Below, piece by piece: positions 3,847-40,060 of a DNA stretch of 64,000 bases. The position numbers were made by a program, and so were the translations under genes. The first letter of the stretch is position 1; the number at the start of each line of letters is the position of its first letter. The DNA comes from Roseofilum capinflatum BLCC-M114 (GTDB taxonomy: Bacteria > Cyanobacteriota > Cyanobacteriia > Cyanobacteriales > Desertifilaceae). The notes under the pieces were generated by a model. It searched no databases, was not told the origin of the DNA, and saw nothing but the letters and a program-made list of their open reading frames with translations. The stretch lies in assembly GCF_030068505.1 (NCBI RefSeq), contig NZ_JAQOSO010000001.1, positions 1 through 64,000 on the forward strand, written 5' to 3'.

Positions 3847-5301
3847 ATGAAAAGACGAGAAATACTGCGGTGGGGAACTTCAGCCGCACTGGGATGGAGT
3901 GCCACATCTGCATTGAATGCCTGTCGCCATTTATCCCCATCCTCTTCCGCTCAATTATCCCTGGAAGCCACTCGCGGTTCCCAATCCGCCAGTGTTGTGG
4001 GAACCGATGCCTATCACTTTTTTAAAGATGTCGGAAACACCTTTTCCGGCACGACTCTACGATTGGTGATAGAAGATGTACCGGGTGTGAGAGTCGCTCG
4101 CCAATTAACGCAAACCGAATTCACTCCCCTAACCGGAATCGACGTGAAATGGGATCTACTCCCCCTCCATCGCGTTTTAGGGCGAATTGAACAAGACATC
4201 GCCAGAGAAGCCGGAACCTATGACATCATGTATTGGGATCAGGCTTGGATTGGTCGCTTTCTTGAAGTTGGGGTCAATCCCAAAGAACTGCTGGAAAACA
4301 GCAACCTGCGATATCCCAACTACAACTTTGAGGATTTTTTCCCCTCTTTAGTTGCCCATGTTTCCTCTTATCAAGGACAGTTGGCCGCCATCCCCTACGA
4401 TATCCCCATATTTATCATGTTTTATCGCCCAGATATTCTGGAGGAATGGGGGTTATCTGTGCCGACAACCATGGCAGACTACTTGGGAACGATGCAAGCA
4501 ATTACCCAAGCCAAAGCCCCGCAAGTCTATGGAACAGTCGGCCAGTGGAAGCTAGAGCATTACAGCTTGTTTTGTAATATGACGGCTTGGTTGTGGGCAC
4601 ATGGTGGATCGACTTATGATGCTAATGGAGAGCCAGCCATTAATGACGATCGCGCGATCGCCGCCCTAGAATATATGCTGGCTCAACGGCAATACGCTCC
4701 CCCCGAAGCCATAACCTGGGACTGGGATGGGGAAGCAGAAGCTTTTCGCCAAGGTCGCGCCGCCCTGTTTATCTCTTGGGGAGAAAGGTTTCCCTGGTTT
4801 GAAGGTTCACCTGGCTCCCAAATTTCTGGAAGAGTAGCCGTTGCTCCTTGTCCCCAAGAAATTCTCCTGCGTCCAAAGAGTGAATGCAGCTTTGGAGAAG
4901 TTCCAGGAATTAGCAATCAAGGGGGCAGCAGTTTGGCCCTGTCTCGTTACAGCAAAAATAAAGATGCAGCCTGGGTATTTTTGCAATGGCTCACCAGTGC
5001 CGATATTCTCACCCGCACGGCGATTATGGCTAAAACCAATAGCGTTCGCCGCAGTACCTACAGCGATCCTCGATTGCGAGTTGGGTTTGGAGACAATCCC
5101 GAAGTTACCAATTATTTTGATGTCACCCTTGATGCCATTGAAAATCGCATGGGAACGGAACCCCACCATCCCAATTGGGTTGAGTTGGGTTTTGATCGCT
5201 TCCCTGTAGAGCTGGGCAAACTGATGACAGACCAACAGAGTATCAAAACCACATTGAATCATATGGCAGAAGCCGCCGCCAGAGCAACAGAAACTCTTTA
5301 A
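3847..5301 (+). CDS. Extracellular solute-binding protein (family 1, sugar type)
   Basis: A 484-aa secreted binding protein. The N-terminus carries a twin-arginine-like motif (MKRREILRWG), a hydrophobic stretch and a lipobox-like ALNAC, so it is probably exported and lipid-anchored at the outer face of the plasma membrane. The body resembles the UgpB/MalE-type carbohydrate-binding fold: IDVKWDLLPLHRV, GTYDIMYWDQAWIG, AAIPYDIPIFIMFYRPDIL, FRQGRAALFISWGERF. There is no ABC permease or ATPase beside it. Instead it is followed after 9 bp by a transmembrane hybrid kinase, which suggests that it delivers a ligand signal to the kinase rather than feeding a transporter. The ligand is unknown. Confidence 0.85.
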   Translation: MKRREILRWGTSAALGWSATSALNACRHLSPSSSAQLSLEATRGSQSASVVGTDAYHFFKDVGNTFSGTTLRLVIEDVPGVRVARQLTQTEFTPLTGIDVKWDLLPLHRVLGRIEQDIAREAGTYDIMYWDQAWIGRFLEVGVNPKELLENSNLRYPNYNFEDFFPSLVAHVSSYQGQLAAIPYDIPIFIMFYRPDILEEWGLSVPTTMADYLGTMQAITQAKAPQVYGTVGQWKLEHYSLFCNMTAWLWAHGGSTYDANGEPAINDDRAIAALEYMLAQRQYAPPEAITWDWDGEAEAFRQGRAALFISWGERFPWFEGSPGSQISGRVAVAPCPQEILLRPKSECSFGEVPGISNQGGSSLALSRYSKNKDAAWVFLQWLTSADILTRTAIMAKTNSVRRSTYSDPRLRVGFGDNPEVTNYFDVTLDAIENRMGTEPHHPNWVELGFDRFPVELGKLMTDQQSIKTTLNHMAEAAARATETL

Positions 5302-5310
5302 CACAAGACC

Positions 5311-8139: not shown

Positions 8140-9421
8140 AGCCGAAATTTTAGCTATTGACGATACACCCGCAAATTTGCGTGTAGTCGCCGATGTCTTA
8201 TCTCCTGTGGGCTATATTGTGGCGACGGTTACCAGTGGCGAGCGTGCCCTCAAGCGCCTACAAAACTATATACCCGATCTGATTCTCCTCGACATTCAGA
8301 TGCCGGGTATCGATGGTTTTGAAACCTGTCGAAAAATCAAGGAAAACCCCGATACAGCCAGTATTCCCATCATTTTTCTGACCGCCCTATCCGATGATGA
8401 GAGTATTCGCAAAGGATTTGCCCTTGGAGCGGTTGATTACATTACCAAACCCTTTCGCGAAGTGGAAATGCTGGCGCGGGTGAAAACCCATTTACAGTTG
8501 CGAAACTTCATGGCACAACTAGAGGAACAAGTCCAGCGTCGCACGGCTGATTTAAGCCGAGCGCTGGAGGAACTGCGATCGTCGCACATGCAATTGGTTC
8601 AACAGGAAAAAATGGCCACCTTGGGGAATCTTGTCGCTGGGGTTGCTCATGAAATTAATAATCCCTTGGGGTTTATTGGTGGCAATCTCTCCATGCTGGA
8701 AGAATGTTTTCTCGATCTGACGGAGGTTCTCAAAGGCTATCGCCAAGAATGTCATGAACCGAGTCCTCAACTGGCAGAAACGATTCAAGAGGTAGATCTC
8801 GATTTTTTGCTGGAGGATGTTCCTAAAAATATTGCCTCCATGCAAAAAGGATTGAAACGAATTGCTAATATTAGTACCTCTTTGCGAACCTTTTCCCGTA
8901 GTGATACAGAGGTCAAAACTGAGTTCAATTTGCATGAAGGACTTGAGAGTACCTTACTAATCTTAAAATATCGCCTCAAAGCCAATGATAACCGCCCTGC
9001 TATTGAAGTCGTCAAAAATTATGGCGATCTTCCAGAAATCAAATGCTATCCGGGTCAGATCAATCAAGTTTTTATGAATATATTGGCCAATGCGATCGAC
9101 ACTCTCGATGAAAAGAGTCAATCAAAAACGTTTGAAGAACTGGAAGAAAACCATAATTGTATTACTATTTTTACAGAAATCAGTGAAGACAAAAAGAATG
9201 TAAGGATTAAAATTATGGATAATGGGATGGGAATACCAGAATCGGTGAAAGAAAAGATATTTGAGCAGGGATTTACAACAAAAAAAGTGGGGAAAGGAAC
9301 GGGTTTGGGGATGGCGATCGCCTGTGAGATTATCAAAGAAAAACATGGTGGCACAATTACCTGTTCTTCAGAATTGGGACAAGGCACAGAATTTGTGATT
9401 TCCCTTCCTTGTCATGAGTAA
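8129..9421 (+). CDS. Receiver-histidine kinase (REC-HisKA-HATPase)
   Basis: A soluble 430-aa protein with an N-terminal receiver domain (Asp55 in [14 protein letters not shown], Lys in YITKPF), a coiled coil (residues 125-160), a HisKA helix with His174 ([12 protein letters not shown]) and a complete HATPase ([24 protein letters not shown]). This is the reverse of hybrid kinases and typical of second-stage relay kinases. It starts 11 bp inside the upstream hybrid kinase gene. The simplest reading is a relay in which the membrane kinase passes phosphate to this protein. No DNA-binding output is encoded nearby, so the final target is unknown. Confidence 0.92.
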
Positions 9422-9432
9422 TAGGTAATGGG

Positions 9433-9716
9433 TAATATCATATCTGGTTAAACAGTTGTCATTGCGACCTCCGGGAAGCAATCGCCAAATCTCGCGATAT
9501 TGCTGAGATTGCTTCGTTCCACTCCGCTCCATTCGCGCTTTATATCAAGTTCGCTTATTCATGTCCGCGAAGCGGAAATACCCTAATTAAAAATCCAGGG
9601 AGCAAGATGCTCCCACTCCAGTCATATCAAAGAATTCGAGGAGTGCGGGCATCTTGCCCGCTTCTCTTTTCCAATTTTCATGTCCGCTTGCGGAAACCGG
9701 ACTTGATATAACAGAA
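9433..9716. repeat. Composite of nested dispersed repeats
   Basis: The 398-bp gap between the kinase operon and deoC is built from repeats. Its first part (9433-9533) matches, in reverse orientation, the element at 61658-61812: ATATCAnATCnG end, TGTCATTGCGA, and GATTGCTTCGTTCCACTCCG. Inside follow two TCATGTCCGC hairpins (9559 CCGCGAAGCGG, 9679 CCGCTTGCGG) and a pair of AAGATGCTC/GCATCTTGC palindromic pieces (9600-9660). CCGGACTTGATATAAC near 9700-9716 may be the displaced right end. No gene is seen. Confidence 0.65.
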
Positions 9717-9819
9717 CAAAATGCTGTATCTCTCCATCTCCCCATCCCCATCCGGTTGCCTTGTGTCCCCTCGATCCGGAAAAATAGAGGATAACCCAAA
9801 TCAAGGCTCACTAGGGATT

Positions 9820-10512
9820 ATGGCTTTAGACTATTCAGACTATTCAGATATTGATATTGCTGACTATATCGAACATTCTCTGTTGCACCCCACCGCAACA
9901 CCGGAGCAGGTGCAACAATGGTGCGAACAGGCTATGGCGATGAGGTTTCCTACGGTTTGCGTGCCTCCGGTTTATGTGCGGCAAACGGCGGATATTTTGC
10001 AGGGAAAATCGACGAAAGTCTGTACGGTGATTGGCTTTCCGACGGGTGCAACGACTCCAGGGGTGAAGCTCTATGAAGCGCAGGAAGCGGTGGAACATGG
10101 AGCTGTAGAGTTAGATGTGGTGATGAATATTGGCTTACTGAAGGCGGGAAAAACGGAAGAGGTGCATCGGGAAATGGCCCAAATTTGTGAGGAAACGGGG
10201 CAAACGGTGAAGGCGATTTTGGAAATGACGGTGTTGACGGATGCGGAAAAACGATTAGCGGCTGAACTGTGTTTGGATGCGGGGGTGGCGTTCTTGAAAA
10301 CGAGTACGGGTTGGCAAGGGGGGGCAACGGTGGAGGATGTGAAGCTGTTGAAGTCTGTGAGCCGGGGGAATGTGGGAATTAAGGCTGCTGGTGGGATTCG
10401 CAATTTAGAGCAAGCTTATGCCTTAATTGAGGCTGGAGCAACCCGGTTGGGGACTTCGCGGGGGATGATGCTCATAGAGGAGCGGGAGATGGTAATGGGT
10501 AATGGGGGATAG
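9820..10512 (+). CDS. deoC: Deoxyribose-phosphate aldolase
   Basis: A 230-aa class I aldolase that cleaves 2-deoxyribose-5-phosphate to glyceraldehyde-3-phosphate and acetaldehyde in nucleoside breakdown. Family marks: [15 protein letters not shown] at the N-terminus, [25 protein letters not shown], the Schiff-base Lys in LKTSTGW, and the second active-site Lys in GIKAAGGIR. The ATG at 9820 is chosen because family similarity begins just after it; 33 further codons upstream are open but unlike the family. The last residues (about MVMGNGG) are encoded by a heptamer-type repeat that also supplies the stop codon, so the native C-terminus may have been replaced. Confidence 0.93.
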
Positions 10513-10545
10513 GGAGATGGGGAGATGGGGGGATGGGGAGAGTGA
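10492..10545. repeat. Short tandem G-rich repeats (7-8 bp type)
   Basis: Runs of GGTAATGGGTAATGGG followed by GGAGATGGGG units overlap the last codons of deoC and continue into the spacer. The same repeat types recur at 11532-11596 (complementary orientation), 19722-19737, 29761-29790, 59427-59465 and 60751-60801. Confidence 0.7.
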
Positions 10546-10600
10546 ACAACAGCCCACCAACCCATTTTTAATTTTTAATTTCTAATTTTTAATTGATATT

Positions 10601-11449
10601 ATGAGCCAAACGTATAAGGCGACGGGTATTAATTTGAAGGGGATGCCTATGGGAGAATCCGATCGCCTGTTAACGGTTTTAACGGCCGAATTTGGACTGA
10701 TTCGGGCGATCGCCCCTGGAGCGCGAAAAGCGAAGTCGAGTTTGGGGGGGCGCAGTGGGTTGTTTGTGGTGAATGAGTTGTTGGTGGTGAAGGGGCGATC
10801 GCTTGATAAAATTATTCAAGCGCAAACGATTCAATCTTATCCGGGTTTAAGTCAGCATTTACTTAAACTCACAGCCAGTCAATATTTAGCTGAGTTAGTC
10901 CTCTGCCAAGCCTTGAGCGATCGCCCCCAAACTGACCTCTACGACTTGCTGCTGCTCCATCTCGATCGCCTGGAAACCAGCGATCTGAGCCTCACTTTAC
11001 CCCATCTGATCCAAGGTATCTTTCACCTGCTGGCTCTGGCGGGAATTGCGCCCCAAGTGCAAAATTGTTGTAGAACGGGAAAGGCGATCGCGCCAAATTT
11101 CCAAGATCCCCAGTGGCAAATCCAATTTAACCTGGCTTCCGGTGGCATTGTCAGCCCGGAAAAATCGCCACAAGCCTTTCAGATGCAGGAATCTGGAGCC
11201 AGCTATCAGATACAAAACTCACCCAGAAAATCCCCCCAACCCCAAGCCTTTTCCCTTAACGCCAGCCAATTATGGACACTCCAGCATCTAGCGGGGCCAG
11301 AACTCCCTAAACTAGAACAAGGAACGGACAACTTCTGGCCCTCCCTAGAACACCTCCTACGTGCCTATGCCCAATACCATTTCGATCGCCCGATCCGAGC
11401 CGCAACCCTCCTAGAACCCTGCCTAGCCAACTTGCCAAACCCCCCCTGA
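10601..11449 (+). CDS. recO: DNA repair protein RecO
   Basis: A 282-aa RecO-family recombination mediator. The family acts in the RecFOR pathway, binding single-stranded DNA and SSB to load RecA at gaps. The N-terminal OB-fold reads TGINLKGMPMGESDRLLTVLT, with EFGLIRAIAPGARKAKSSLGG following, both family marks. The C-terminal part is helical. The four-Cys zinc site of many RecO proteins is only partly visible (NCCRTGK). It is a separate unit with repeats on both sides. Confidence 0.9.
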   Translation: MSQTYKATGINLKGMPMGESDRLLTVLTAEFGLIRAIAPGARKAKSSLGGRSGLFVVNELLVVKGRSLDKIIQAQTIQSYPGLSQHLLKLTASQYLAELVLCQALSDRPQTDLYDLLLLHLDRLETSDLSLTLPHLIQGIFHLLALAGIAPQVQNCCRTGKAIAPNFQDPQWQIQFNLASGGIVSPEKSPQAFQMQESGASYQIQNSPRKSPQPQAFSLNASQLWTLQHLAGPELPKLEQGTDNFWPSLEHLLRAYAQYHFDRPIRAATLLEPCLANLPNPP

Positions 11450-11531
11450 AGATACAGCGCTTTGCTCTCTCTGTAGGGGAGATGCCCTTCGACTTCGCTC
11501 AGGGCGAGGGGGATGGGGAGAATAACCTCTT

Positions 11532-11596
11532 GCCTATTCCCCATTCCCTATTCCCCATTCCCTATTCCCCATTCCCTATTCCCCATTCCCCATTAC
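11532..11596. repeat. C/T-rich short tandem repeats
   Basis: Alternating CCCTATT and CCCCATT units fill the region directly before the MFS gene start. They read as the complement of the GGGAATA/GGGTAAT heptamers seen elsewhere. The repeat reaches to within 3 bp of the ATG, so it forms the ribosome-binding region of that mRNA; no normal Shine-Dalgarno sequence is left. Confidence 0.75.
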
Positions 11597-11598
11597 CT

Positions 11599-12978
11599 AT
11601 GTCCTTATCCCAAACTGATGTAGAAACAACTCCTAAAACCCCGACTTCCAACCCTGCGCCCTCCTCTCCGAGTCTGGGTGCAGTGCTAAAGAACCGCAAT
11701 TTCCTCACCCTGTGGAGCGGTCAAGTGTTTTCCCAGTTAGCCGATAAAGTCTATCTGGTGTTAATGATTGCCATTATTAGCAGCCGCTTTGAACACCAGG
11801 GACAAACCATTAGCGGTTGGGTATCGGCGATCATGATTGCCTTTACCATTCCGGCGGTGCTGTTTGGCTCCTTGGCGGGGGTATTTGTGGATCGCTGGCC
11901 GAAAAAATCGGTCTTGGTTCTCACTAACCTGCTCCGGGGAGCCTTTGTCCTCACGATTCCCCTGTTTCTGAATCTGTCTACAGGAATTGATTTGGCGATC
12001 GATATTCCCCTAGGGTTTGCCTTGCTCCTCGCCATTACCTTCGCGGTTTCTACCCTAACCCAATTCTTTGCTCCGGCTGAACAATCTATTATCCCCCTAA
12101 TTGTCAAGCGCAATCTGCTGTTGCCGGCCAATTCTCTCTACACTTCGACGATGATGGCCTCGATTATTTTGGGATTTGCTCTCGGAGACCCGCTTCTAGA
12201 CCTGGCCAGCCACCTGATTAGCCCGATTTTGGGCAATAGTGACCTGGGTAAAGAAGTCCTGGTGGGAGGGGGTTATCTGCTGGCAGGGGTGATTTTATTG
12301 GTGGTGAATACAAAAGAAAATACCTATCCCCCAGACCACGAACATCCCCATGTTTTGCAGGATCTGCGGGATGGATTGCAGTTTTTGGGCGATCGCCATC
12401 GGGTGCGGAATGCGATTTTACAACTGATTATTCTCTCCTGTATTTTTGCCGCTTTAGCCGTGTTAGCGGTGCGAATTGCGGAAATTATTCCCAATTTGGA
12501 ACCGTCCCAATTTGGCTTTTTATTGGCTATGGGTGGTGTAGGTCTGGGCATTAGTGCGGCGGTGGTGGGAGAATTTGGCCATCGTTGGGCTTCTAATGCC
12601 CAATTGAGTCTGATCGGATCGATGGGGATGGGGGGATCGCTGTTGGGTTTGTCGTTTACGGTTCAATCTTTGGGATGGTCTCTATTTTGGATTGGGTTGT
12701 TGGGTGCATCGGCTGCGTTTATTGGTATTCCCATGCAAACTACGATCCAATCCCAAACGCCGGAAGCCATGCGAGGCAAGGTGTTCGGCTTGCAAAATAA
12801 TGCGATTAATATTGCCTTGAGTTTCCCTCTGGCTTTGGTGAGTGTGGCGGAAGCATGGCTAGGAATTCAATCGGTTTTACTGGGTTTAGGGGCTGTGGTC
12901 TTCGCAGGGGGAGTCTCAACCTGGTATATTTCCCGTACAGGAGATCGGGATACAGGGCGATCGTCTCCTACCCGATAA
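11599..12978 (+). CDS. MFS transporter
   Basis: A 459-aa major facilitator with about 11-12 hydrophobic segments. A Pro/Ser-rich cytoplasmic N-terminus (residues 1-30) is followed by LKNRNFLTLWSGQVFSQLADKVY and by the loop motif GVFVDRWPKKSVL between TM2 and TM3, as in the MFS_3/EntS-like exporters. A second loop signature, MRGKVFGLQNNAINIALSFPLAL, is in the C-terminal half. The substrate is not evident. The ATG at 11599 is chosen; the longer open frame from 11482 runs through repeat DNA. Confidence 0.85.
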   Translation: MSLSQTDVETTPKTPTSNPAPSSPSLGAVLKNRNFLTLWSGQVFSQLADKVYLVLMIAIISSRFEHQGQTISGWVSAIMIAFTIPAVLFGSLAGVFVDRWPKKSVLVLTNLLRGAFVLTIPLFLNLSTGIDLAIDIPLGFALLLAITFAVSTLTQFFAPAEQSIIPLIVKRNLLLPANSLYTSTMMASIILGFALGDPLLDLASHLISPILGNSDLGKEVLVGGGYLLAGVILLVVNTKENTYPPDHEHPHVLQDLRDGLQFLGDRHRVRNAILQLIILSCIFAALAVLAVRIAEIIPNLEPSQFGFLLAMGGVGLGISAAVVGEFGHRWASNAQLSLIGSMGMGGSLLGLSFTVQSLGWSLFWIGLLGASAAFIGIPMQTTIQSQTPEAMRGKVFGLQNNAINIALSFPLALVSVAEAWLGIQSVLLGLGAVVFAGGVSTWYISRTGDRDTGRSSPTR

Positions 12979-13331
12979 TGCTGGGCATCGTTGGCGGAAT
13001 GCGGCATTTTTAAATGAGTTATGAAAGGTTGCCCTCATCCCCCAACCCCCCTTCGGCTCCGCTCAGGGCGGTGCTTCTCCCAGAGGAGAAGGGGAGCAGA
13101 AGTCCCTCTCCCCCTTGGGAGAGGGATTTAGGGAGAGGGCATTCCAAGTGTACGTCTCAAATAAAAACGCTATACACCAGTTTGCTCTGCTATGCGGTGC
13201 ATCTCGATCCCCCTAAATCCCTTGGAAAGAGGGGGACTTTTACAGCCCCGCTTTTTTAAGGGGGGTTCGGCGGATCGATACTCCCTCTTGAGAACACGAA
13301 AGACGATAATATTCCCTTTCTTGGCAATTGA
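12979..13331. repeat. Repeat-filled spacer before the glycosyltransferase gene
   Basis: 353 bp without a gene. At 13022-13148 there is a diverged family-A block (GCCCTCATCCCC, several GGGAGAGGG pieces, and CTTCGGCTCCGCTCAGGGCG inserted). At 13176-13275 there is a TTTGCTCTGCTATGCGGTG motif shared with 30067-30092 and 15608-15628, followed by pieces of the CCCCCTAAATCCC/AAGGGGGG repeat. The glycosyltransferase ATG is 57 bp after the last repeat. Confidence 0.6.
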
Positions 13332-14519
13332 ATGCATATCGCTTGGCTTGGTAAAAAATCTCCGTTCTGTGGTAATGTCACTTATTCCCGTGAGGTGACT
13401 AATGCGTTGCTCGATCGCGGCCATCAGGTGAGCTTTTTTCATTTTGCCTCGGAGGATGGGGGGGCAGAATTGTTATCTAATGGCGATCAAGCTTCCCCGG
13501 AAGGATGGCCGGATTGTCCAGAAGTGCCGATTCCCTGTTTGTATAAATCGACGATTTACACGATTCCCACGTTGAGTTCGTCTAAGGTTTTAGCGCGATC
13601 GCTCCATTCTCTGCAACCGGATCTGGTTCATGCGTCCTTAACCCTGTCTCCCCTAGATTTTCTGCTGCCGGAAATTTGCCAAGATTTGGATTTACCTTTG
13701 GTGGCCACCTTTCATCCGGCCTTTGACCGCAAGTTACGCAATTTTTCTTCGGGAACTCAACAACTGACCTATCAGCTCTATGCTCCTTGTTTGGCTAATT
13801 ATGATAAAACCATCGTCTTTTCCCAGATTCAGCGCGAGATTTTGATTAAACTGGGGGTTCCGGAAGCGAAGGTGGTGGTGATTCCTAATGGGGTGGATGC
13901 GCTCAAATATTCCCCCGGCCCGTCTTTGATTAAGCAGGATTTGCAGGCGGAGCGGTTGTTTTTGTATCAGGGACGGATTGCGATCGAGAAAAATGTGGAG
14001 TCGTTGCTGAAGGCTTGGAAGATGGCAGATTTGGGGTTGGGGTGCAAATTGGCGATCGTCGGCACTGGCCCCCTGAAAAGTGCCCTACAAGCCTCCTATG
14101 GCCGAGAACAGGGGGTGATTTGGTTGGGCTTTATTGCCGATGAGCAGCGCCGCATCGAAATTTTACGAGGAACAGATGTATTTATTTTACCTTCTTTTGT
14201 AGAGGGGTTATCCTTGTCTCTTTTGGAGTCCATGGCCTGCGGAACCGCTTGCATGGCAACGGATGTGGGCGCAGATGGTGAAGTGTTGGAAAAGGGAGCC
14301 GGGGTAATCTTAAATGCCAATCGGGTCACCACGGAGTTACAAACCTTGCTGCCTTTGTTCCGAGACCATCCCGAATTAAGTGTCATGCTGGGACAAAAAG
14401 CACGGCAACGGGTACTAGAGCGTTATACCCTGAATCATAATATTTCTCAGGTGGAGCAGCTTTATGATGAGGTAGTTAAACAGAGCAATGATGCTGCTTA
14501 TGGGAGTTTGGTGAATTAA
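13332..14519 (+). CDS. Glycosyltransferase, GT4 type
   Basis: A 395-aa retaining glycosyltransferase with two Rossmann-like halves (GT-B fold). N-terminus: MHIAWLGKKSPFCGNVTYSR, an acceptor-domain start with a Gly-rich loop. C-terminal half: VIPNGVDALKYSPG, LFLYQGRIAIEKNVESLLKAW, and the donor-binding EGLSLSLLESMACGTACMATDVGADGE with the EX7E-type glutamates. It likely transfers a sugar from a nucleotide donor to a lipid or polysaccharide precursor. The product is unknown and no other cell-surface polysaccharide genes adjoin it. Confidence 0.87.
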   Translation: MHIAWLGKKSPFCGNVTYSREVTNALLDRGHQVSFFHFASEDGGAELLSNGDQASPEGWPDCPEVPIPCLYKSTIYTIPTLSSSKVLARSLHSLQPDLVHASLTLSPLDFLLPEICQDLDLPLVATFHPAFDRKLRNFSSGTQQLTYQLYAPCLANYDKTIVFSQIQREILIKLGVPEAKVVVIPNGVDALKYSPGPSLIKQDLQAERLFLYQGRIAIEKNVESLLKAWKMADLGLGCKLAIVGTGPLKSALQASYGREQGVIWLGFIADEQRRIEILRGTDVFILPSFVEGLSLSLLESMACGTACMATDVGADGEVLEKGAGVILNANRVTTELQTLLPLFRDHPELSVMLGQKARQRVLERYTLNHNISQVEQLYDEVVKQSNDAAYGSLVN

Positions 14520-14608
14520 AGGGAATTTTAAGAACACCTATTACCCATTCATTACCCATTACCGCGCGAAGCGCTGTAACAGCAGTTTTTAATAAGAGTT
14601 AGAGATAG

Positions 14609-14640
14609 AAAAACGCTAACACCAGACAAGGAATTAGCGT
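14609..14640 (-). terminator. Rho-independent terminator of the small photosystem-type gene
   Basis: On the minus strand, ACGCTAA pairs with TTAGCGT across a 14-nt loop and is followed by a run of T (AAAAA on the plus strand at 14609-14613). It lies 54 bp after the stop codon at 14694, the expected place. Confidence 0.65.
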
Positions 14641-14693
14641 GAGGGAGTTTGAGGTGAGTACGGGAAGGAAGGGTACTCACGCTACCGAGATGA

Positions 14694-14930
14694 CTAGCTG
14701 GCAAGGCTGTTGCTGCCATAACTATCCAAGCTGTATCCAGGGACGCGGTTGGTGTAGTCGGTTTCTTGACCGGTTACGGATTTAGCGATGCTGTTGAAGC
14801 CATCAGAGTCCCAGTTGCGTTCGTGGATAGATTTGGTTTGTTCTCCCATGAAGTAGGCTTGAGTTCCGATTACAGAAGCAGCGACCCAACCAGCGATGAA
14901 GAGTAAGGAAAGAATGACTAAGTTAACCAT
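14694..14930 (-). CDS. Small thylakoid-type membrane protein, probably Psb35-related
   Basis: A 78-aa protein with one N-terminal membrane helix (residues 3-24, VILSLLFIAGWVAASVIG) and a polar tail with QAYFMGEQTKSIHERNW. I recognise this layout from cyanobacterial proteins annotated as photosystem II Psb35-related, but cannot confirm it from sequence alone. The ATG is preceded by GGAGAACAAC (minus strand), a good ribosome-binding site. The gene is a single unit with its own terminator and a roughly 370-bp leader up to the CRISPR array, as is common for highly expressed photosynthesis genes. Confidence 0.6.
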   Translation of the reverse strand: MVNLVILSLLFIAGWVAASVIGTQAYFMGEQTKSIHERNWDSDGFNSIAKSVTGQETDYTNRVPGYSLDSYGSNSLAS

Positions 14931-30172: not shown

Positions 30173-30275
30173 TGGACCGGCAAGCTTAAAATCATGGGTA
30201 AGCTATGTGCTACAATTTACTAATGGAATAAATTACAGCGATCGCGTTGCCCACAAAATTAAGCTTGCCGGTCCA
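30173..30275. mobile_element. 103-bp element with perfect 17-bp inverted ends
   Basis: TGGACCGGCAAGCTTAA at 30173-30189 is the exact reverse complement of the sequence at 30259-30275. The interior is A/T-rich and non-coding. This is the form of a miniature inverted-repeat element or of the fused ends of a deleted insertion sequence. It directly adjoins the broken end of the polyketide synthase remnant. Confidence 0.65.
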
Positions 30276-31091
30276 GTAGGGTGGGCATTGCCCACCTTAC
30301 TCTCGGCCAATTTTTCCCGCAATTCAGCTTTAGATTCAACCACAACAGCTAAACGATGCTGAAAATGCTTGCGTCCCACGTTGGCAGTGAAACAAATATC
30401 GGCTAGTTCTGCTGGCGAGCTAGAGTCCAGGTAGGTCAGATATTGGGCGATCGCTGTCTGCAAGCCTTTCTCTGTCTTGGCTGATACGGTAAACAGATGG
30501 GAGAGGCGCTCTCGTTCCTGGCCGGGTTCCCCGTTCCCGATCTCTGGAGCTTCTTCTAAAACAACATGAACATTAGTTCCTCCCATGCCAAAGGAACTGA
30601 CCCCAGCGCGACGAGGGGTGTCATTACTTTGCCATTCTCGCAGTTGGCGATTGACAAAAAACGGACTGTTGGCAAAATCGATTTGGGGTAAGGGTTGTTC
30701 GTAGTGCAGGCTGGCCGGAATGACCTGATGTTTGAGCGCTAGAGCCGTTTTAATTAAGCCGACGACTCCTGCTGCATTGGCTAAATGTCCGACGTTGGTT
30801 TTCACTGAGCCGATCGCGCAAAAGCCTTTTTCTGCGGTGGTTTCTCGGAAGGCTTGGGTCAGGGCGGCAATTTCGATCGGATCGCCTAGGGGAGTCCCCG
30901 TGCCGTGGGTTTCGATGTAGCTCACCGTACTGGCCTCGACTGTGGCAACTGCCAAAGCTTCGGAAATAACCGCCGCTTGACCCTCTACTGATGGAGCGGC
31001 ATAGCTCACCTTCAAAGAACCATCGTTATTAATCGCCGAACCTTTGATTACAGCATAGATGCTATCTCTTTCGGCGATCGCTTCCGATAAC
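30276..31091 (-). pseudogene. Polyketide synthase remnant: C-terminal half of a ketosynthase domain
   Basis: On the minus strand the frame encodes the second half of a type I ketosynthase: YAVIKGSAINNDGS, YIETHGTGTPLGDPIE (active-site His), GSVKTNVGHLANAAG (second His and Lys), RRAGVSSFGMGGTNVHVVLEEAP, then the start of the linker to an acyltransferase domain. The catalytic Cys half and all later domains are missing. The frame has no stop, so decay is recent or purely by deletion. On the 5' side it is joined directly to a DUF4058 fragment near 31091; on the 3' side similarity stops at a GTGGGCATTGCCCAC hairpin and the inverted-repeat element. Confidence 0.87.
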
Positions 31092-31270
31092 CGGTTCTCC
31101 CTTACGCAATACATCAATCTCTACTAAATGCGTAGAACTGCTGAAAACTGTATTGCGTTTACTCTCGTATTGGTTCCGCCCTTTCCCAGAGCGCTTATTA
31201 GCTGGAGAGAGGATTTCGAGCGCCGTTACCACTTCCTTTGTCGCCACCTCTCGCACCTCAACCGCTGAGT
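31092..31270 (-). pseudogene. DUF4058 gene remnant
   Basis: About 59 residues of the middle of a DUF4058 protein: VEVREVATKEVVTALEILSP, NKRSGKGRNQYESKR, STHLVEIDVLRKGEP. Complete members are around 250 aa. The piece starts almost immediately after the stop of the DUF760 gene and ends at the junction with the ketosynthase remnant. It has no start of its own except a Met that lies in the DUF760 stop region. Probably not translated into anything useful. Confidence 0.72.
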
Positions 31271-33166: not shown

Positions 33167-34264
33167 TTAAAAAATGCAGGGAAAGGTAACTGTAAAAATA
33201 CTTCCTTTTCCTGGTTCACTTTCTACTGTGATTTCCCCGCCATGGAGATCGATTAAACGTTTGACAATGGAGAGTCCTAAGCCTGTTCCAGGAATTTTGC
33301 CCACATTATCCGCCCGTTCAAACCGTTGAAATAGTTTTTTTTGATACTCTAGAGGTAAGCCGATGCCGCGATCGCAAACGGCAAACGTAATCTCCCTATC
33401 GGTTTGGGTAACATCGAGATTAACGGTTCCCCCCTCTGGAGAATACTTGATGGCATTGGAGAGCAAATTGGAGAGAATGTGGCGTAGGATCAGAGGATCG
33501 AGATTAATGATTTGCTTTTCTCCATAAAGTGTAAGTTTCAAGAAATGTTTGCTAGAAGCGATCGCCTTCACTTCGTCAAGTACCTCTTCACAAAACTCTA
33601 CCACATCCATCGGTTCGGGATGAAACTCTAATTTTCCCGCTTCTGTTCGACTTAAGGTTAAAATATCTTCGAGCAACTGGTTCATATGTTGCGCTGCGAT
33701 TTGAATGCGTTTTAAGTGCTTTCCTTTTTTGTCTTCCGTCAGCTTATGTCCATAACTTTGTAACATTCCCGCAGACATTTGAATCGCTGTTAAAGGTGTT
33801 CTTAAGTCATGAGAAGCCAACGAGATATACTCAGTTTTTTCTTGACTTCTCGATTCCGCATTAGCTAAGGAAGATTCTATATTTAGATTTTCCTGATGTT
33901 TTTTGAGTGCCATTTTAATCGTGGCATGAACTTCCCGTTCCTTAAACGGCTTGAGTAAATAACCATAAGATCCGGTTTCTTCAGCTCGAGTCAACGTTTG
34001 ATCGTCAGCATAAGCCGTGACATAAATCACTGGAATATTATATTGCTTTCTGATCATTTCTGTTGTTTCAATTCCATCCATATCCCCTTTAATCACAATA
34101 TCCATTAAAATCAGATCCGGGATAACCTCTGTAATTTTATTCAGAGCTGCTTTTCCTGAAGATACAATTCCAACTACTTCATAGCCTAACTTTTCTAATT
34201 TCCGGGCTAGTCCTTTGGCAATCAGTAATTCATCCTCAACAATTAAAATCTTGATAGGAGACAT
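33167..34264 (-). CDS. Receiver-histidine kinase, partner of the multisensor kinase
   Basis: A 365-aa soluble protein: receiver domain (residues 1-120, acceptor Asp in LILMDIVIKGDMDG, Lys in LLKPFKE), short coiled coil, HisKA with His in SLASHDLRTPLTAIQ and a full HATPase (SNLLSNAIKYS, DRGIGLP, GTGLGLSIVK). It starts 3 bp after the stop of the 1930-aa kinase, so the two are co-transcribed. The order is that of an intermediate relay protein: it may take phosphate from the big kinase and control its own kinase output. Confidence 0.93.
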   Translation of the reverse strand: MSPIKILIVEDELLIAKGLARKLEKLGYEVVGIVSSGKAALNKITEVIPDLILMDIVIKGDMDGIETTEMIRKQYNIPVIYVTAYADDQTLTRAEETGSYGYLLKPFKEREVHATIKMALKKHQENLNIESSLANAESRSQEKTEYISLASHDLRTPLTAIQMSAGMLQSYGHKLTEDKKGKHLKRIQIAAQHMNQLLEDILTLSRTEAGKLEFHPEPMDVVEFCEEVLDEVKAIASSKHFLKLTLYGEKQIINLDPLILRHILSNLLSNAIKYSPEGGTVNLDVTQTDREITFAVCDRGIGLPLEYQKKLFQRFERADNVGKIPGTGLGLSIVKRLIDLHGGEITVESEPGKGSIFTVTFPCIF

Positions 34265-34267
34265 AAG

Positions 34268-37200
34268 TTATACCCTCTGACGATACTTTAATTCTAAAAA
34301 TCGCAATTCAAATGTTGTGCCATGGTCTCGAAGCAATGTAATTTCACCTTCTAATTGTTCCGTTAGGGTACAAACTAACTCCATCCCCAAAGATTCAACA
34401 TTACGAAAATCTAAATCTTCGGGGAAACCAATTCCATTATCGGCTACCTCGACCACAATTTGACCATTATTTTGCTGATACATGGTAATCTTGACTAGCC
34501 CTTTCCTCCCTTGTGGAAAAGCATGTTTTAAGGTATTCGATAATAACTCATTGACAATTAAACCACAGGGATGAGCGGTTTCTATATTTAACAAGACAGG
34601 TTCAATATTTAAATCAAAGGTTACTCGATTATTTTCTAAGTTATACGATTCAAATAAGTTATGAACTAAGTCTTCTAAATATTCACCAAAATTAATTGTA
34701 TCTAGGGTCATAGAGCGATAAAGTTTTTCATGAATTAGAGCCATGGAATAAATACGACTGCGACTATCTTCTAATACCTTGATTAAGCTGGAATCACTGA
34801 CATAATCAGCTTGAAATTCTAATAAATTAGAAACAACCAATAAATTGTTTTTGACTCGATGATGAATTTCTTTTAAAAGCACTTCTTTTTCTTGTAAAGA
34901 AGTTACCAATCTACTTTCTGCTTGTTTGCGATCGCTAATGTCTCGATACATCCATAAATGTCCTCGATCGACGGAATCAATTAGAATCGGAACATAGTTT
35001 TGTTCAAGGATGCGACCATCGGCTAATTGTATTTCTTGGTTGGTAACAATTTCCTGATTTGCCACAATTTTTTGATGGTTTTGACTAATTTCTTCTGGAT
35101 GCTCAAATAACGGTGCAAATTCATCACCAATATTTCCCCATTTTTGTCCAATTAATCGATTAGAACAGTTTATGGTTTTGAAAATATCGCAAAATGCTTG
35201 ATTGATTAAAGCGACTTTATTATGTTCATCTTTAACTAAAACTCCAAGCTGAAGATTAGAGATCAAACTGGTCAATCGAGAGGTTGTTTCTTGTAATTTT
35301 TGTTCGATTTCTTTGCGATCGCTGATATCTATCCAATAGCCAATGATTTCTAGAGGACTTCCGTTCTCGTCCCGCACTAGGTTCAGTTGGTCGTAAATCC
35401 AAATATATCTTCCTTCTTTATGCCAAAAACGGTATTCATGGCTATAAGAACCTTGTTTAAATAAAGTCTTTAAGCCGTAATGATCGATTTTGTTTTTGTC
35501 TTCTGGATGTAGATGATCTGACCAAAAATTAGGCTCAAACATTTCTAGTAATTCATAGCCAATTAAATCATAAGCATTGTCACTTACAAAGGTAAGGTCG
35601 AAGCTATCATGGGCACGAAGACTGTATAAAATGCCTGGGCTAGAAGAGAGCAAGTATTGAATTCTTTGTTGACTCATCAACAAGGCTTTTTCGGCTACAA
35701 TTCTTTCTTTGAGTTCAGTTTGCAGTTGCTGATAATATTCTGATTGTTGAATAGCGATCGCCAGTTGGGAAGCAATTTGTTTTAATAAGGTGACTTCTTC
35801 AGTTTTCCACTGTCTAATTTGATCGCATTGATGAACAATTAACAGTCCCCACAATAAGTTGTTTTGTACAATAGGAACGACGATTTTACTTTTGACTTGA
35901 AATTCTTGTAGAAATTCCACTAAACAGGGCCGAATATTAGGATGACAAACATCTGATAGTGCATAGGTTTTGCCCGCAATATATTCATTATAGCATTCCC
36001 TAGGAAAAATTTCTTCGGGAAATTTTTGATCTAAGGTGCGAGTCCAACCGGGATTAACTGCTTCTGCAATGACTTGTCCGGTGTAGTTGGATAACACTCG
36101 ATAAACTAAGACGCGATCGGAGAGTAAGAGTTGTTTAACTTCTTGGACTGTTGTTGTGAGGATTTCTCGCAGGTCTAAGGATTCGCGAATCCGTTGCGTA
36201 ATCATTCCAAACAGTTCTTCACGTTTTACTTTCTCTAGCAAACGTTCTTCAGCACTTTTTATTTCAGTAATGTTGTTTTGAATGCCTAGATAATGAGTTA
36301 AGATTCCTCGATCGTCATGAATTGGAGAAATAGTGACTCGGTTCCAAAATAAGGTTCCGTCTTTGCAATAGTTTCGCAATACAACTGTACAGCTTTCTTC
36401 ATTTTTTAAGGCTTGACGAATGATTTTAAGTCCGTCTTGATGGCGATCTTTGCCTTGCAGAATCCGGCAATTTTTGCCGATGATGTCTTGTGCTGAATAT
36501 CCCGTGACACGCTCAAAGGCAGGATTAACGGAAATGACGGGGAAATCGGGCTGTTTGGCATCGACAATGACGATACCGTTGCTACTGGCAGAAATGGCTC
36601 GTTCGCTCAAGCGTAATTGTTCTTCGACTTGTTTGCGTTGGGTGATATCGGAGGCAGCGCCTAGAATTTGTATGGGTTTCCCTTGAGGATCTTTGGTGAA
36701 AATTGTATCTCGACTAACGAACCAATGCCATTGCCCTTGGCGATCGCGCATTCGGTATTCAATTTCCCAAATTTCTGTATCACTTGTATCCATCAAGTTT
36801 TGATGAAACTGATATACTTTGGGCCGATCTTCTGGATGCATGAGTTGGTCAAACAGGCTATTGCCCATGTCCTGAATCTCACGGGGACTGTAGCCTAGAA
36901 CGACAGCAATATTTTTATTGGCATAAATATTCTTTTGCTTCTCTAAGTCATAAATATATAAGATATTTGGACTCGCATCCGCAATGCGTTGAATAAATCG
37001 CTCGCTCTCTTGCAGCGCTAATTCGGCTTTCTTACGGTGGGTAATATCTAGGGCAGCACAAGTTACTCCAATCACTTGATTATCTAAATTCAACAAGGGG
37101 TCAACGGTTAAATCATAACACTTAAAGTCCCCTTGATTAGTGACAATTATTTCTTCTCGAACTCCTATCTTAGAGTCTAAAACTTGTTGTTTAATTGCCT

Positions 37201-40060
37201 CTAATTTTTGACCTTCTTCGGGTACAAATAAATCTCTATCTAATTTGCCGAGAATGATCTCTGGCTCATAACCAGGAGGAGGATTATAAATCCAGGTATA
37301 TCGCAGATCTAAATCTTGGTTGAAGACAACAATGGGAGAATTTTTTAGGGCAATTCTAAACCGTTCTTCGGCATAACGGAGGGCTTCATTGGCGGCTTGT
37401 AAATCTGCTGTGCGTTGAGTGACTTGATCTTCTAGGGTTTGATTGAGATATTTGAGGGCTTCTTCGGCTTGCTTGCGATCGCTAATATCGGTAATACTGC
37501 CCACATACCCGATGATGTTCCCGTCCTCATCTACATCAGCAACGGCCTGGCCCACGACCCAAACGACTCGGCCATCTAGATGTTGAAAGCGATACTCAGA
37601 ATAAAATGTGCGATTCTCCTCTACAGCTTGAGACCACTGGTGAAGCACCCATTCTGAATCCAGGGGATGGAGAGTTTGAGACCACCCTTCCATTATCGCT
37701 TCTTGTGGGCATAGACCGGTCATCTCACACCAGCGATGATTGACGTATAAACATCGGCCTTGGTTATCTGTCTGAAAGATGCCCACAGGAGATGCACTGG
37801 CTAAGGTAGCATAGCGTTGTTGACTTTTTTTTAAGGCGGATTCTATCTCTCGCCGCTCTGTAATATCTCGACCGACGGCGTAAAAATAGGGTTCATCGGC
37901 TGGCATGGCTGTCCAAGCAATCCATCGATAGGAGCCATCTTGAGCGCGATACCGATGTTCAAAGTTAACGGTGGGGACTCTAGAGGCGAGTTGCTGCACT
38001 TGAGCTTCGGTGGCGGCTAAGTCGTCGGGATGGACGAAATCTAATAAGGTACTTGATTGCAGTTGTTCTGGGCTATATCCCAAGAGTCCTTGAAAACGGG
38101 GATTGATGCGCTTAAAAGAACCGTCAAAGCCGATAATGCAAAAGAGATCGAGGGAAAGGTTAAAAAATTGGTTTAATTCTTCTGTGAGGCGATGTCGTTC
38201 TAGGACAGATGCGAGTAAATGGGCGATCGCCTCTAAAAATTGCACTTCGTCCGGACTAAAATGGCGATGTTCCCTAGTATGCACGCCCAACACCCCAAAG
38301 GGATGCCCTAAACCGGGAATCAGGGTGGTTACGCCACTAATTACGCGCCCTTGATTGAGTAATACTGAACCGCGAAATCGGGTTTCTACCCGTAGGTCAT
38401 CTACGACCACGGATTGGCCAGACCATAAGGTATACCCTAATTGGGTATTTTTGGCAGCACTGAGGGTTAGTTGTTCAAGGGAATGCTGAAGATCTTGATG
38501 GTGAACGGAGTTAAATCCATGGGCGGCTTTAATTTGAAATGCGGCTTGATTGGGCAAGAGTTCTAGCAGTTCTACATAGTCCACATCTAGGGTTTTGGCA
38601 ATCTCCCGTACAATTTTATTCATTAGTACCTGGAGGTTGGTGCTGGCGATCGCATCCTGGCTTAAATGGGTTAAGGTTTGTTGCTGGCGATCGCGCAACC
38701 GAAGCTGCATTTGCGCTTCCTGTCGTCGGCTTAAATCTATCCCTGTGATAATCACATGGGTAATCTTTCCCCGGTCGCGAAAAATCTGGTTTGACCACTC
38801 AATGCGGCGTTGTCCACTCTTTTGAGTCAGCCAATGGCCTTGATACATCTCCGTCGATTCTCCCCGAAGCGCTTGCTGAAGAACTTGTTTAATCTCAAGT
38901 TGCTCGGCGACTGGAATTAAAAATTCCCAAAATCGCTGACCTTGAGCTTGTTTTTCTCCATAACCACTCAAATGTTGACAGGTGTGATTAAAATAAATGA
39001 TTTCACCGTGGCGATTCACCACAACGACTAAGGCATCAACGGCATTAAGAATGGCGCGGGTAAAGTTGCGCTCTTGTTCTAAAGCGTACTGCATCCATTG
39101 ATGTTCCCTCAGTTGGGTGGGTAAATCTTGGAACTGCAAGCTTTGTTTTAAGGCGATCGCCAATTGATCGGCTTGCTGTTTGAGAAATGCTTCATCGGGT
39201 CTAGACCAATGCCGAGGGGCGATCGCCTGCTGCGCGGTGAGCAGTCCCCAGAGATGATCCCCTTGGACAATGGGAACCACTAAGTTGGCTCTCACCTGAA
39301 TTTGCCGTAAGAATTCCACATGACAAGGGGTTAACTCTCCGGACTCAATATCATGGGTAACTTGGGTGCGTCCATTTTGATAGGCTTTAAATAGATCTTC
39401 GCCAAAGTGAGGATCGGTAATCTTTCGACCGAATAAGGATTGGCATAAGGGATTTACTGATTCAGCAATGACTGTGCCACCGCCATTGGGTTCAAAGCGA
39501 TAAATTAACACCCGATCGCACTTTAAGCCTTGATGAATCTCTTTAACGGTGCGATTGAGAAGAGTCTGAAAGTCAATCTTGTGGCGATCATCGGGTTCTG
39601 TCTGTGTTGTTTGAAGTTGGGCCAATCCATAGTAAACGGCGATCGCATCTAGATTTTGTAGACTTTGTTGCAGTTTTTCCCCTAAGATCGCCCCCACGAT
39701 CTCTCCCTGGCGATCGAGTATGGGCAAATACCAAATCTGCTGCTCATGCATCAGTTTTGTCACTGCCCACAGATCTAAATCGGGTTGCCAAGTTAAACTC
39801 CAACTCTGGGCAGTCATCACCCGGTCAATGGTAACCCCACCCCATTCCTGGCGATGGCGGCACATCTGATGATAATCGGATACCGTCACTACCCCTAGAA
39901 CTTGTTGGTTGTCCCTGACCAGTAGATAAGGATGAGAGGCTCGATGATCGCAACGGGCGATCGCCTCCTCCACCGTTAGATCCGGTGAAATCACGATCGG
40001 ATGGCGATCGAGAACAGTTTCTAGACTGGGCAGTTGCAAAGAGACAGAAGCAAAGGACAT
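34268..40060 (-). CDS. 1930-residue multisensor histidine kinase with CBS, GAF, PAS and LOV domains
   Basis: Domains in order (approximate residues): two CBS (15-135); phytochrome-type GAF1 (165-315) with Cys246-His247 in TPCHVEFLRQIQVRANLVVP, the position of the bilin-binding Cys in cyanobacteriochromes; PAS (325-450); classic GAF2 (465-625); four PAS (627-1140); a LOV-type PAS (1150-1265) with GKNCRILQG (Cys1198), NYCKDGTLFWNR and GIQNNIT; GAF3 (1285-1440) with PCLVEFL (Cys1379-Leu); two PAS (1465-1705); and a HisKA_2-type end (KEIHHRVKNNLL, His about 1733) with HATPase. No membrane segment. It is soluble and may integrate blue light, possibly red/green light and adenine nucleotides. The next gene is a receiver-kinase. 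Confidence 0.93.
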   Translation of the reverse strand: MSFASVSLQLPSLETVLDRHPIVISPDLTVEEAIARCDHRASHPYLLVRDNQQVLGVVTVSDYHQMCRHRQEWGGVTIDRVMTAQSWSLTWQPDLDLWAVTKLMHEQQIWYLPILDRQGEIVGAILGEKLQQSLQNLDAIAVYYGLAQLQTTQTEPDDRHKIDFQTLLNRTVKEIHQGLKCDRVLIYRFEPNGGGTVIAESVNPLCQSLFGRKITDPHFGEDLFKAYQNGRTQVTHDIESGELTPCHVEFLRQIQVRANLVVPIVQGDHLWGLLTAQQAIAPRHWSRPDEAFLKQQADQLAIALKQSLQFQDLPTQLREHQWMQYALEQERNFTRAILNAVDALVVVVNRHGEIIYFNHTCQHLSGYGEKQAQGQRFWEFLIPVAEQLEIKQVLQQALRGESTEMYQGHWLTQKSGQRRIEWSNQIFRDRGKITHVIITGIDLSRRQEAQMQLRLRDRQQQTLTHLSQDAIASTNLQVLMNKIVREIAKTLDVDYVELLELLPNQAAFQIKAAHGFNSVHHQDLQHSLEQLTLSAAKNTQLGYTLWSGQSVVVDDLRVETRFRGSVLLNQGRVISGVTTLIPGLGHPFGVLGVHTREHRHFSPDEVQFLEAIAHLLASVLERHRLTEELNQFFNLSLDLFCIIGFDGSFKRINPRFQGLLGYSPEQLQSSTLLDFVHPDDLAATEAQVQQLASRVPTVNFEHRYRAQDGSYRWIAWTAMPADEPYFYAVGRDITERREIESALKKSQQRYATLASASPVGIFQTDNQGRCLYVNHRWCEMTGLCPQEAIMEGWSQTLHPLDSEWVLHQWSQAVEENRTFYSEYRFQHLDGRVVWVVGQAVADVDEDGNIIGYVGSITDISDRKQAEEALKYLNQTLEDQVTQRTADLQAANEALRYAEERFRIALKNSPIVVFNQDLDLRYTWIYNPPPGYEPEIILGKLDRDLFVPEEGQKLEAIKQQVLDSKIGVREEIIVTNQGDFKCYDLTVDPLLNLDNQVIGVTCAALDITHRKKAELALQESERFIQRIADASPNILYIYDLEKQKNIYANKNIAVVLGYSPREIQDMGNSLFDQLMHPEDRPKVYQFHQNLMDTSDTEIWEIEYRMRDRQGQWHWFVSRDTIFTKDPQGKPIQILGAASDITQRKQVEEQLRLSERAISASSNGIVIVDAKQPDFPVISVNPAFERVTGYSAQDIIGKNCRILQGKDRHQDGLKIIRQALKNEESCTVVLRNYCKDGTLFWNRVTISPIHDDRGILTHYLGIQNNITEIKSAEERLLEKVKREELFGMITQRIRESLDLREILTTTVQEVKQLLLSDRVLVYRVLSNYTGQVIAEAVNPGWTRTLDQKFPEEIFPRECYNEYIAGKTYALSDVCHPNIRPCLVEFLQEFQVKSKIVVPIVQNNLLWGLLIVHQCDQIRQWKTEEVTLLKQIASQLAIAIQQSEYYQQLQTELKERIVAEKALLMSQQRIQYLLSSSPGILYSLRAHDSFDLTFVSDNAYDLIGYELLEMFEPNFWSDHLHPEDKNKIDHYGLKTLFKQGSYSHEYRFWHKEGRYIWIYDQLNLVRDENGSPLEIIGYWIDISDRKEIEQKLQETTSRLTSLISNLQLGVLVKDEHNKVALINQAFCDIFKTINCSNRLIGQKWGNIGDEFAPLFEHPEEISQNHQKIVANQEIVTNQEIQLADGRILEQNYVPILIDSVDRGHLWMYRDISDRKQAESRLVTSLQEKEVLLKEIHHRVKNNLLVVSNLLEFQADYVSDSSLIKVLEDSRSRIYSMALIHEKLYRSMTLDTINFGEYLEDLVHNLFESYNLENNRVTFDLNIEPVLLNIETAHPCGLIVNELLSNTLKHAFPQGRKGLVKITMYQQNNGQIVVEVADNGIGFPEDLDFRNVESLGMELVCTLTEQLEGEITLLRDHGTTFELRFLELKYRQRV

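Follow-up and report, generated by a model that had tools for sequence, protein, structure and literature searches.

On the minus strand of the window, by which we mean the whole 64,000-nucleotide stretch of DNA analysed, two adjoining genes encode a multisensor histidine kinase and a REC-HisKA-HATPase protein, here called the receiver-kinase (Table 1). The kinase gene lies upstream and the receiver-kinase gene downstream. A reading made earlier from the sequence with no database searches (the sequence-only reading) had placed the second protein 3 bp behind the first; both ORFs lie at the minus-strand coordinates in Table 1, and the ORF coordinates give a stop-to-start spacing of 3 nt. An AGAGGG stands just 5′ of the receiver-kinase ATG, and its location within the 3′ end of the kinase gene, together with the 3-nt gap, suggests that translation of the pair is probably coupled. 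The neighbours of the pair in the window encode a chorismate mutase, an S49 peptidase, an EamA protein and a DUF760 protein. Directly behind the DUF760 gene, at 30233-31117 on the minus strand, lies an ORF of 294 aa with a TTG start that encodes a C-terminal portion of a polyketide ketosynthase together with a linker; no N-terminal half is seen in this ORF, and it is possibly a remnant.

Pfam and TIGR00229 gave the kinase the domain order CBS, GAF1, PAS, GAF2, four PAS, LOV, GAF3, two PAS, HisKA_2 and HATPase, in agreement with the domain string that had been read from the letters. TIGR00229 marked eight PAS-type stretches, the LOV domain included. In the receiver-kinase, Pfam found REC, HisKA and HATPase. 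We take the phospho-acceptor of HisKA_2 to be His1734, the second histidine of its HH motif.

Table 1. Window coordinates of the two genes and their domains (aa, residues of the respective protein)
Feature	Position	Strand	Basis
Multisensor HisKA_2 histidine kinase, 1930 aa, ATG	34268..40060	-	ORF, Pfam, same-length orthologues in four further Roseofilum genomes
CBS pair, aa 16-134; CBS1 with GVVTVSD (G56-D62), CBS2 without that motif	39659..40015	-	Pfam, IMPDH match
GAF1, cyanobacteriochrome-like, aa 163-304	39149..39574	-	PDB matches 6oap, miRFP670nano, 6bhn
PAS1, about aa 330-455	38696..39073	-	Pfam/TIGR00229, position approximate
GAF2, aa 475-622, without bilin Cys pattern	38195..38638	-	Pfam, pattern check
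Four PAS, about aa 636-1149	36614..38155	-	Pfam/TIGR00229, positions approximate
LOV, GKNCRILQ, Cys1198, aa 1151-1277	36230..36610	-	PDB LOV matches such as 4r3a, 7r5n
GAF3, RcaE/CcaS-type green/red cyanobacteriochrome domain, aa 1290-1450	35711..36193	-	PDB matches, triad
Two PAS, about aa 1463-1715	34916..35674	-	Pfam and domain scan, positions approximate
HisKA_2 dimerisation/phospho-acceptor, aa 1731-1806	34643..34870	-	Pfam, E 2.1e-26
HATPase_c of kinase, aa 1834-1921	34298..34561	-	Pfam
Receiver-kinase REC-HisKA-HATPase, 365 aa, ATG	33167..34264	-	ORF, Pfam
REC of receiver-kinase, aa 6-116, Asp55	33917..34249	-	Pfam
HisKA of receiver-kinase, aa 143-210, His152	33635..33838	-	Pfam
HATPase_c of receiver-kinase, aa 256-362	33179..33499	-	Pfam

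Both genes are intact, identical in length and adjoining in five of six Roseofilum genomes, the source genome included. The receiver-kinase orthologues are 84-91% identical. The best named match was R. halophilum BLCC-M91 (88%), and a scan of genome contigs returned three loci, of which one is an orthologue. The remaining genome of the six searched, G004, gave no orthologue-grade match to the kinase or the receiver-kinase; its best matches were a receiver-kinase at 46% and, for the kinase, a match at the level of the GAF domain only (E 2.4e-29). One locus, L054, is identical to another, L041, and was left out of the five distinct kinase sequences and of the mean domain identities quoted here.

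The five distinct sequences align without gaps or indels, and every domain is kept. Mean identity was highest for HisKA_2 (0.95), lay at 0.85-0.87 for GAF1, LOV, GAF3 and the last two PAS domains, and was lowest in the CBS region (CBS1 0.74, CBS2 0.71). For two species pairs, dN/dS was 0.14 and 0.16 over the whole kinase, 0.09-0.13 for LOV and GAF3 and 0.21-0.27 for the CBS pair. The recurrence of paired 1930-aa and 365-aa ORFs in four other Roseofilum genomes and the low dN/dS of the kinase confirm that the arrangement is genuine and not due to chance. These data also bear on whether several of the sensor domains are inert scaffolds and only one or two of them signal. This would fit GAF2, which has no bilin Cys pattern, the PAS domains, which have no assigned cofactor, and the domains with the highest dN/dS, namely the CBS pair and PAS1 (0.27 and 0.28) in one species pair and PAS3 and PAS4 (0.42 and 0.45) in the other. 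However, no domain has been lost from any of the five sequences, and in neither species pair does the dN/dS of any domain reach 0.5; we regard inert scaffolds as a possible but not a likely explanation.

The LOV domain carries the signature GxNCRxLQ (GKNCRLLQ in one orthologue), with Cys1198 in all five distinct sequences, and is predicted to be a candidate blue-light flavin photoreceptor. In its nearest homologues outside Roseofilum, L087 (ORF 6495-12398, aa 1068-1191) and L088 (ORF 4078-10377, aa 1200-1323), serine occupies the position of the adduct cysteine and the rest of the signature is kept. According to a passage of PMC4682037, LOV domains that lack the cysteine can still signal via flavin photoreduction, so the serine in these two proteins could be a change of signal instead of a loss. 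The same two homologues, and the same passage, speak for a LOV domain that acts as a flavin redox sensor, in a protein that integrates redox and energy state with a colour input and for which the light adduct is incidental; a passage of PMC8846402 that treats CBS as an energy sensor points the same way. Against this stand the retention of Cys1198 in five of five Roseofilum sequences and a LOV dN/dS near 0.1, and we consider such a redox integrator improbable.

LOV, GAF3 and GAF1 each keep their photoactive cysteine in five of five sequences, which supports the sequence-only reading in placing several light sensors on one kinase; the green/red type of GAF3 had been overlooked. The best PDB matches of GAF3 were 8k9o and 7ckv, the latter named RcaE. 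All five orthologues have the protochromic triad E1350, L1380 and K1392 around C1379: Cys is followed by Leu (C1379-L1380) in each, and E1350 and K1392 align with RcaE in each, the identity and numbering of the RcaE triad residues being our assumption. GAF3 is by sequence a green/red sensor of the RcaE/CcaS type, and its photoconversion is predicted.

GAF1 is of a different kind. We aligned 77 GAF domains (four references, five GAF3, five GAF1 and 63 others), and 28 of them, including RcaE and all five GAF3, read ECLK at the four positions around the cysteine; four read ECMK and one ECVK. Among the other 44, to which GAF1 belongs, 26 read xCHN. GAF1 itself has PCHN, SCHN or SCYN, its His247 being replaced by Tyr in one orthologue; Cys246 is invariant in all five and the second Cys of the DXCF type is absent. 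Since Cys246 is kept together with an Asp 30 residues ahead of it (C-30), GAF1 is probably a bilin domain of a colour other than that of GAF3. A doubled green/red type was seen in two CBS kinases, L090 (ORF 6239-13051) and L089 (ORF 6603-14840), each of which has a tandem of two GAF domains, both with ECLK.

The source genome holds three genes for ferredoxin-dependent bilin reductases and gave 15 matches to phycobilisome families; two of the three reductases and two of these matches are together on contig C100. It also holds a CcaS-like kinase (L104) with the order GAF (ECLK)-PAS-HisKA. An OmpR-type regulator adjoins this kinase and two phycobilisome linkers lie close by; the first linker has CpcG2 as its best NCBIfam name, below cut-off. 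Because of this kinase, the one in the window would be an additional green/red sensor, and it may serve something else. One alternative is that it is a second chromatic-acclimation sensor, with GAF3 as the dominant input and an OmpR-type regulator of phycobilisome genes at the end of the relay, alongside or against the CcaS-like system. The GAF3 triad, the bilin reductases and phycobilisome-family genes, and the CcaS-like locus in the same genome all speak for such a role. We nevertheless think it rather unlikely, as the output domain is HisKA_2 in place of HisKA, a receiver-kinase is interposed, no OmpR-type regulator is adjacent and none of the neighbouring genes listed above has a link to the phycobilisome.

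The evidence for the CBS pair differs between its two halves. Only the first CBS passes Pfam (aa 16-62, E 9.1e-7). The second rests on an IMPDH CBS-pair match that covers aa 18-132 (E 7e-5), on the homologue L087, for which Pfam reports two stretches of CBS (E 5.6e-19), and on a poor AF2 model of the pair, built from three sequences at a low confidence (pLDDT 58.7). Foldseek with this model gave one match at E < 0.001 and low TM-scores; of the 50 entries listed, the majority are CBS proteins or enzymes that carry CBS. A GxxTxxD motif is present in CBS1 of five of five orthologues and in CBS2 of none; we take GxxT/SxxD in CBS domains to be a ribose-binding motif. Given the single Pfam CBS, the motif in CBS1 alone and the poor model, energy sensing is possible, and nucleotide sensing by the pair is plausible at the CBS1 site only.

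The sequence-only reading had called paired CBS domains at the N-terminus of such a kinase uncommon. This was not borne out: CBS is present in 13 of 22 ORFs bearing a GAF3-type GAF (CL, CM or CV), a set from which the window orthologues were excluded, for which loci were chosen by best GAF3 match and in which two are Roseofilum CcaS-like kinases without CBS. On this count, among ORFs with a GAF3-type GAF, we reject rarity of the N-terminal CBS. A further CBS-rich locus lies on contig C25 of the source genome (L043, 911-9268), where two adjoining sensor proteins of 2071 and 664 aa each carry four N-terminal CBS plus GAF/PAS.

To place the kinase among its relatives, we used both its output and its sensor domains. 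In a tree of 37 HisKA_2 domains it groups with L087 and L088 (support 98/87), in which the receiver-kinase lies 275 and 225 nt away, respectively. A larger clade of 22 HisKA_2 domains (support 100/98) shows CBS, a triad-type GAF and a following receiver-kinase as recurrent features, not present in all rows. At E 1e-25, at least 123 of the 386 genomes searched have relatives of GAF3, with up to nine candidates scored in each. A LOV search, in which up to ten candidates per genome were scored, gave at least 150 matches in at least 82 of the 386 genomes, and 86 of the matches listed were examined: 80 were hand-picked, mostly from the upper list and among long frames, and six were fetched otherwise. 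In this census, domains were called by HMMs built from the same proteins and Cys patterns by means of regular expressions, so the counts that follow probably miss some cases. A Cys-LOV ORF, by pattern, was present in 48 of the 80 hand-picked loci. The set of CBS, LOV and cyanobacteriochrome GAF in one protein, for which the sequence-only reading had proposed a domain-architecture search, was found in two of these 48, both with HisKA_2. Two others have a bilin-type GAF without CBS or HisKA_2 (L162 and L206), two have HisKA_2 only (L141 and L143), and 42 have none of these. In L206, a HisKA-type kinase, the LOV domain stands directly ahead of a full-triad GAF.

The exact sensor set had also been thought to be without a described example. 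CBS-GAF-PAS-LOV-HisKA_2 kinases of 865-870 aa are encoded by L127 (1523-5876) and L128 (2642-7010), whose two genomes belong to a single genus of a different family within the order, and they rule out uniqueness of CBS plus LOV plus bilin-type GAF. Their GAF domains read CH and DPCF, with no triad GAF, and the kinase gene overlaps a REC gene in each; kinase and REC gene together are a possible blue-light/bilin controlled cyclic-di-GMP switch. Our literature search, limited to open-licence papers, found none describing the sensor set of the window kinase. The kind is found in many cyanobacteria; what is uncommon is that a single HisKA_2 kinase unites a Cys-LOV, a protochromic-type GAF, another bilin-type GAF and CBS.

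We then asked how regularly the two genes of the pair occur together. In a survey of 69 related genomes (receiver-kinases at E up to 1e-85, with up to 29 candidates scored per genome, and HisKA_2 matches at E up to 1e-50), the matches listed comprised at least 56 receiver-kinases and 89 HisKA_2 domains. Among these listed matches, 47 of the 56 receiver-kinases start directly behind a HisKA_2, the end of the one match and the start of the other being 6 to 107 positions apart, and the source genome has four such pairs. In the 40 pairs that were fetched, the HisKA_2 HH and the REC Asp are present in 40 of 40, and the HisKA His of the receiver-kinase in 39, with a gap in one. For these 40 of the 47 pairs the HisKA_2 and REC distances correlated at 0.90. 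When partners were swapped within genomes, the mean correlation was 0.36 and the maximum 0.77, and none of 2000 trials reached 0.90; REC and the kinase part of its own chain correlated at 0.78, below the value for HisKA_2 and REC. As joint divergence arises partly from shared duplication, it is evidence for a unit and not proof of contact. The HisKA_2 kinase and the receiver-kinase are thus a recurrent module whose pairs diverged together, and the pairing put forward by the sequence-only reading stands on adjacency and joint divergence, the passage of phosphate between the two remaining a prediction. Elsewhere in the window (3847-9421, plus strand) lies a second kinase/receiver-kinase set, made up of a solute-binding protein, a HAMP-HisKA-HATPase-REC hybrid kinase of 942 aa and an overlapping REC-HisKA-HATPase protein of 430 aa.

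In some relatives the output behind the receiver differs. The gene next to the L127 and L128 kinases encodes a 592-aa protein whose REC is homologous to the window REC, with identities of 66 and 64%, respectively; by Pfam the L127 protein is REC-GGDEF-EAL, and the L128 protein has the same length and start. In L270 the gene next to the kinase encodes no more than a REC, which has 129 aa and shares 68% identity with the window REC. A receiver that is kept while the output changes is expected if REC is the point at which partners plug into the kinase, and the pattern marks it as a candidate for that role. The pair might instead be co-transcribed without exchange of phosphate, each protein working with other partners: among the matches listed, nine of the 56 receiver-kinases have no HisKA_2 in front and 42 of the 89 HisKA_2 have no receiver-kinase behind at the survey threshold. 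The adjacency of the majority, the joint divergence compared with within-genome swaps and the retention of REC with swapped outputs argue against this, and we hold it to be distinctly improbable.

Our favoured reading, held with some confidence, is that of a soluble multicolour light-reading kinase that relays phosphate to the adjoining receiver-kinase, with CBS setting the response level. Its basis is the domains, their key residues and conservation, the recurrent pairing, the joint divergence and the swapped outputs in relatives, and from these we infer the binding of chromophores and nucleotides, the colours, the direction in which phosphate is transferred and the final output. The soluble kinase would read light colour and, possibly, adenine nucleotides. 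GAF3 would bind a bilin (phycocyanobilin) at Cys1379 and switch between green- and red-absorbing forms by the RcaE/CcaS protochromic mechanism, LOV would bind flavin and report blue light via Cys1198, and GAF1, for which no colour is predicted, would act as the other bilin domain. The level of the response would be set by the CBS pair, perhaps by a nucleotide at CBS1. All sensor domains would act on HisKA_2 (His1734) via one helix stack, and the phosphoryl group would pass from the kinase to Asp55 of the receiver-kinase, where it would change the activity of that protein's own HisKA kinase (His152), which in turn would phosphorylate a regulator encoded elsewhere. Several points count against this reading: shared duplication by itself could produce joint divergence, the CBS region is the least conserved and CBS2 is without the motif, His247 of GAF1 is Tyr in one orthologue, G004 has no orthologues, a CcaS-like kinase is present in the genome, and the nearest homologues have a Ser-LOV.

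Blue and green/red inputs are usually studied separately in cyanobacteria. A tentative extension, which we consider less likely than not, is that one kinase computes a blue to green/red ratio by its three photosensors, scaled by adenylate, with the Cys/Ser difference switching the blue channel and the output, a second kinase or cyclic-di-GMP enzymes, swapped behind a conserved receiver. Our literature search found no paper on a light processor of this multi-input kind in which a protochromic GAF immediately follows LOV. As LOV lies next to the RcaE-type GAF in one chain (aa 1151-1450), a 300-residue fragment would be enough to examine such integration. Natural comparisons of input and output exchange are offered by LOV with either Cys or Ser, and by homologous receivers joined either to a kinase or to GGDEF-EAL.

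Compared with known systems, GAF3 has the Cys-Leu and the triad Glu and Lys in common with RcaE and CcaS, which are GAF-PAS-HisKA kinases of chromatic acclimation with response regulators of their own. The window kinase differs from both in its HisKA_2, LOV, CBS, two more GAF and seven PAS domains and in its receiver-kinase partner. Orthology to RcaE/CcaS is ruled out by the HisKA_2 and the REC-HisKA-HATPase partner, and the L104 kinase fits that position better. LOV histidine kinases of the HWE/HisKA_2 type likewise combine LOV and HisKA_2 in one chain; in these, LOV is usually the sole photosensor. Passages of PMC9415938 state that CcaS and RcaE have Leu instead of His. On multi-input sensor kinases in general, passages of PMC6798134 and PMC1592074 describe PAS/GAF sensors that are arranged in tandem and linked by helices, and count CBS as one of the sensory domains that signalling proteins carry at the N-terminus; the domain set of the window kinase appears in neither.

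The nearest comparisons are with other cyanobacterial loci. In L087, L092, L094, L099, L101 and L119, a CBS-PAS-GAF-HisKA_2 kinase is followed by a receiver-kinase, and all belong to the same output-domain clade (100/98); unlike the window kinase, none has a Cys-LOV. L087 shares the GAF3 type and a collinear stretch with 44% identity over 1315 aa, but has no GAF1, and a distance of 275 nt separates it from the start of its receiver-kinase, whereas the other five are shorter and have a GAF with CM or CV. L127 and L128 have the set of sensor kinds closest to that of the window kinase and a homologous REC, but with cyclic-di-GMP enzymes as output and not a second kinase.
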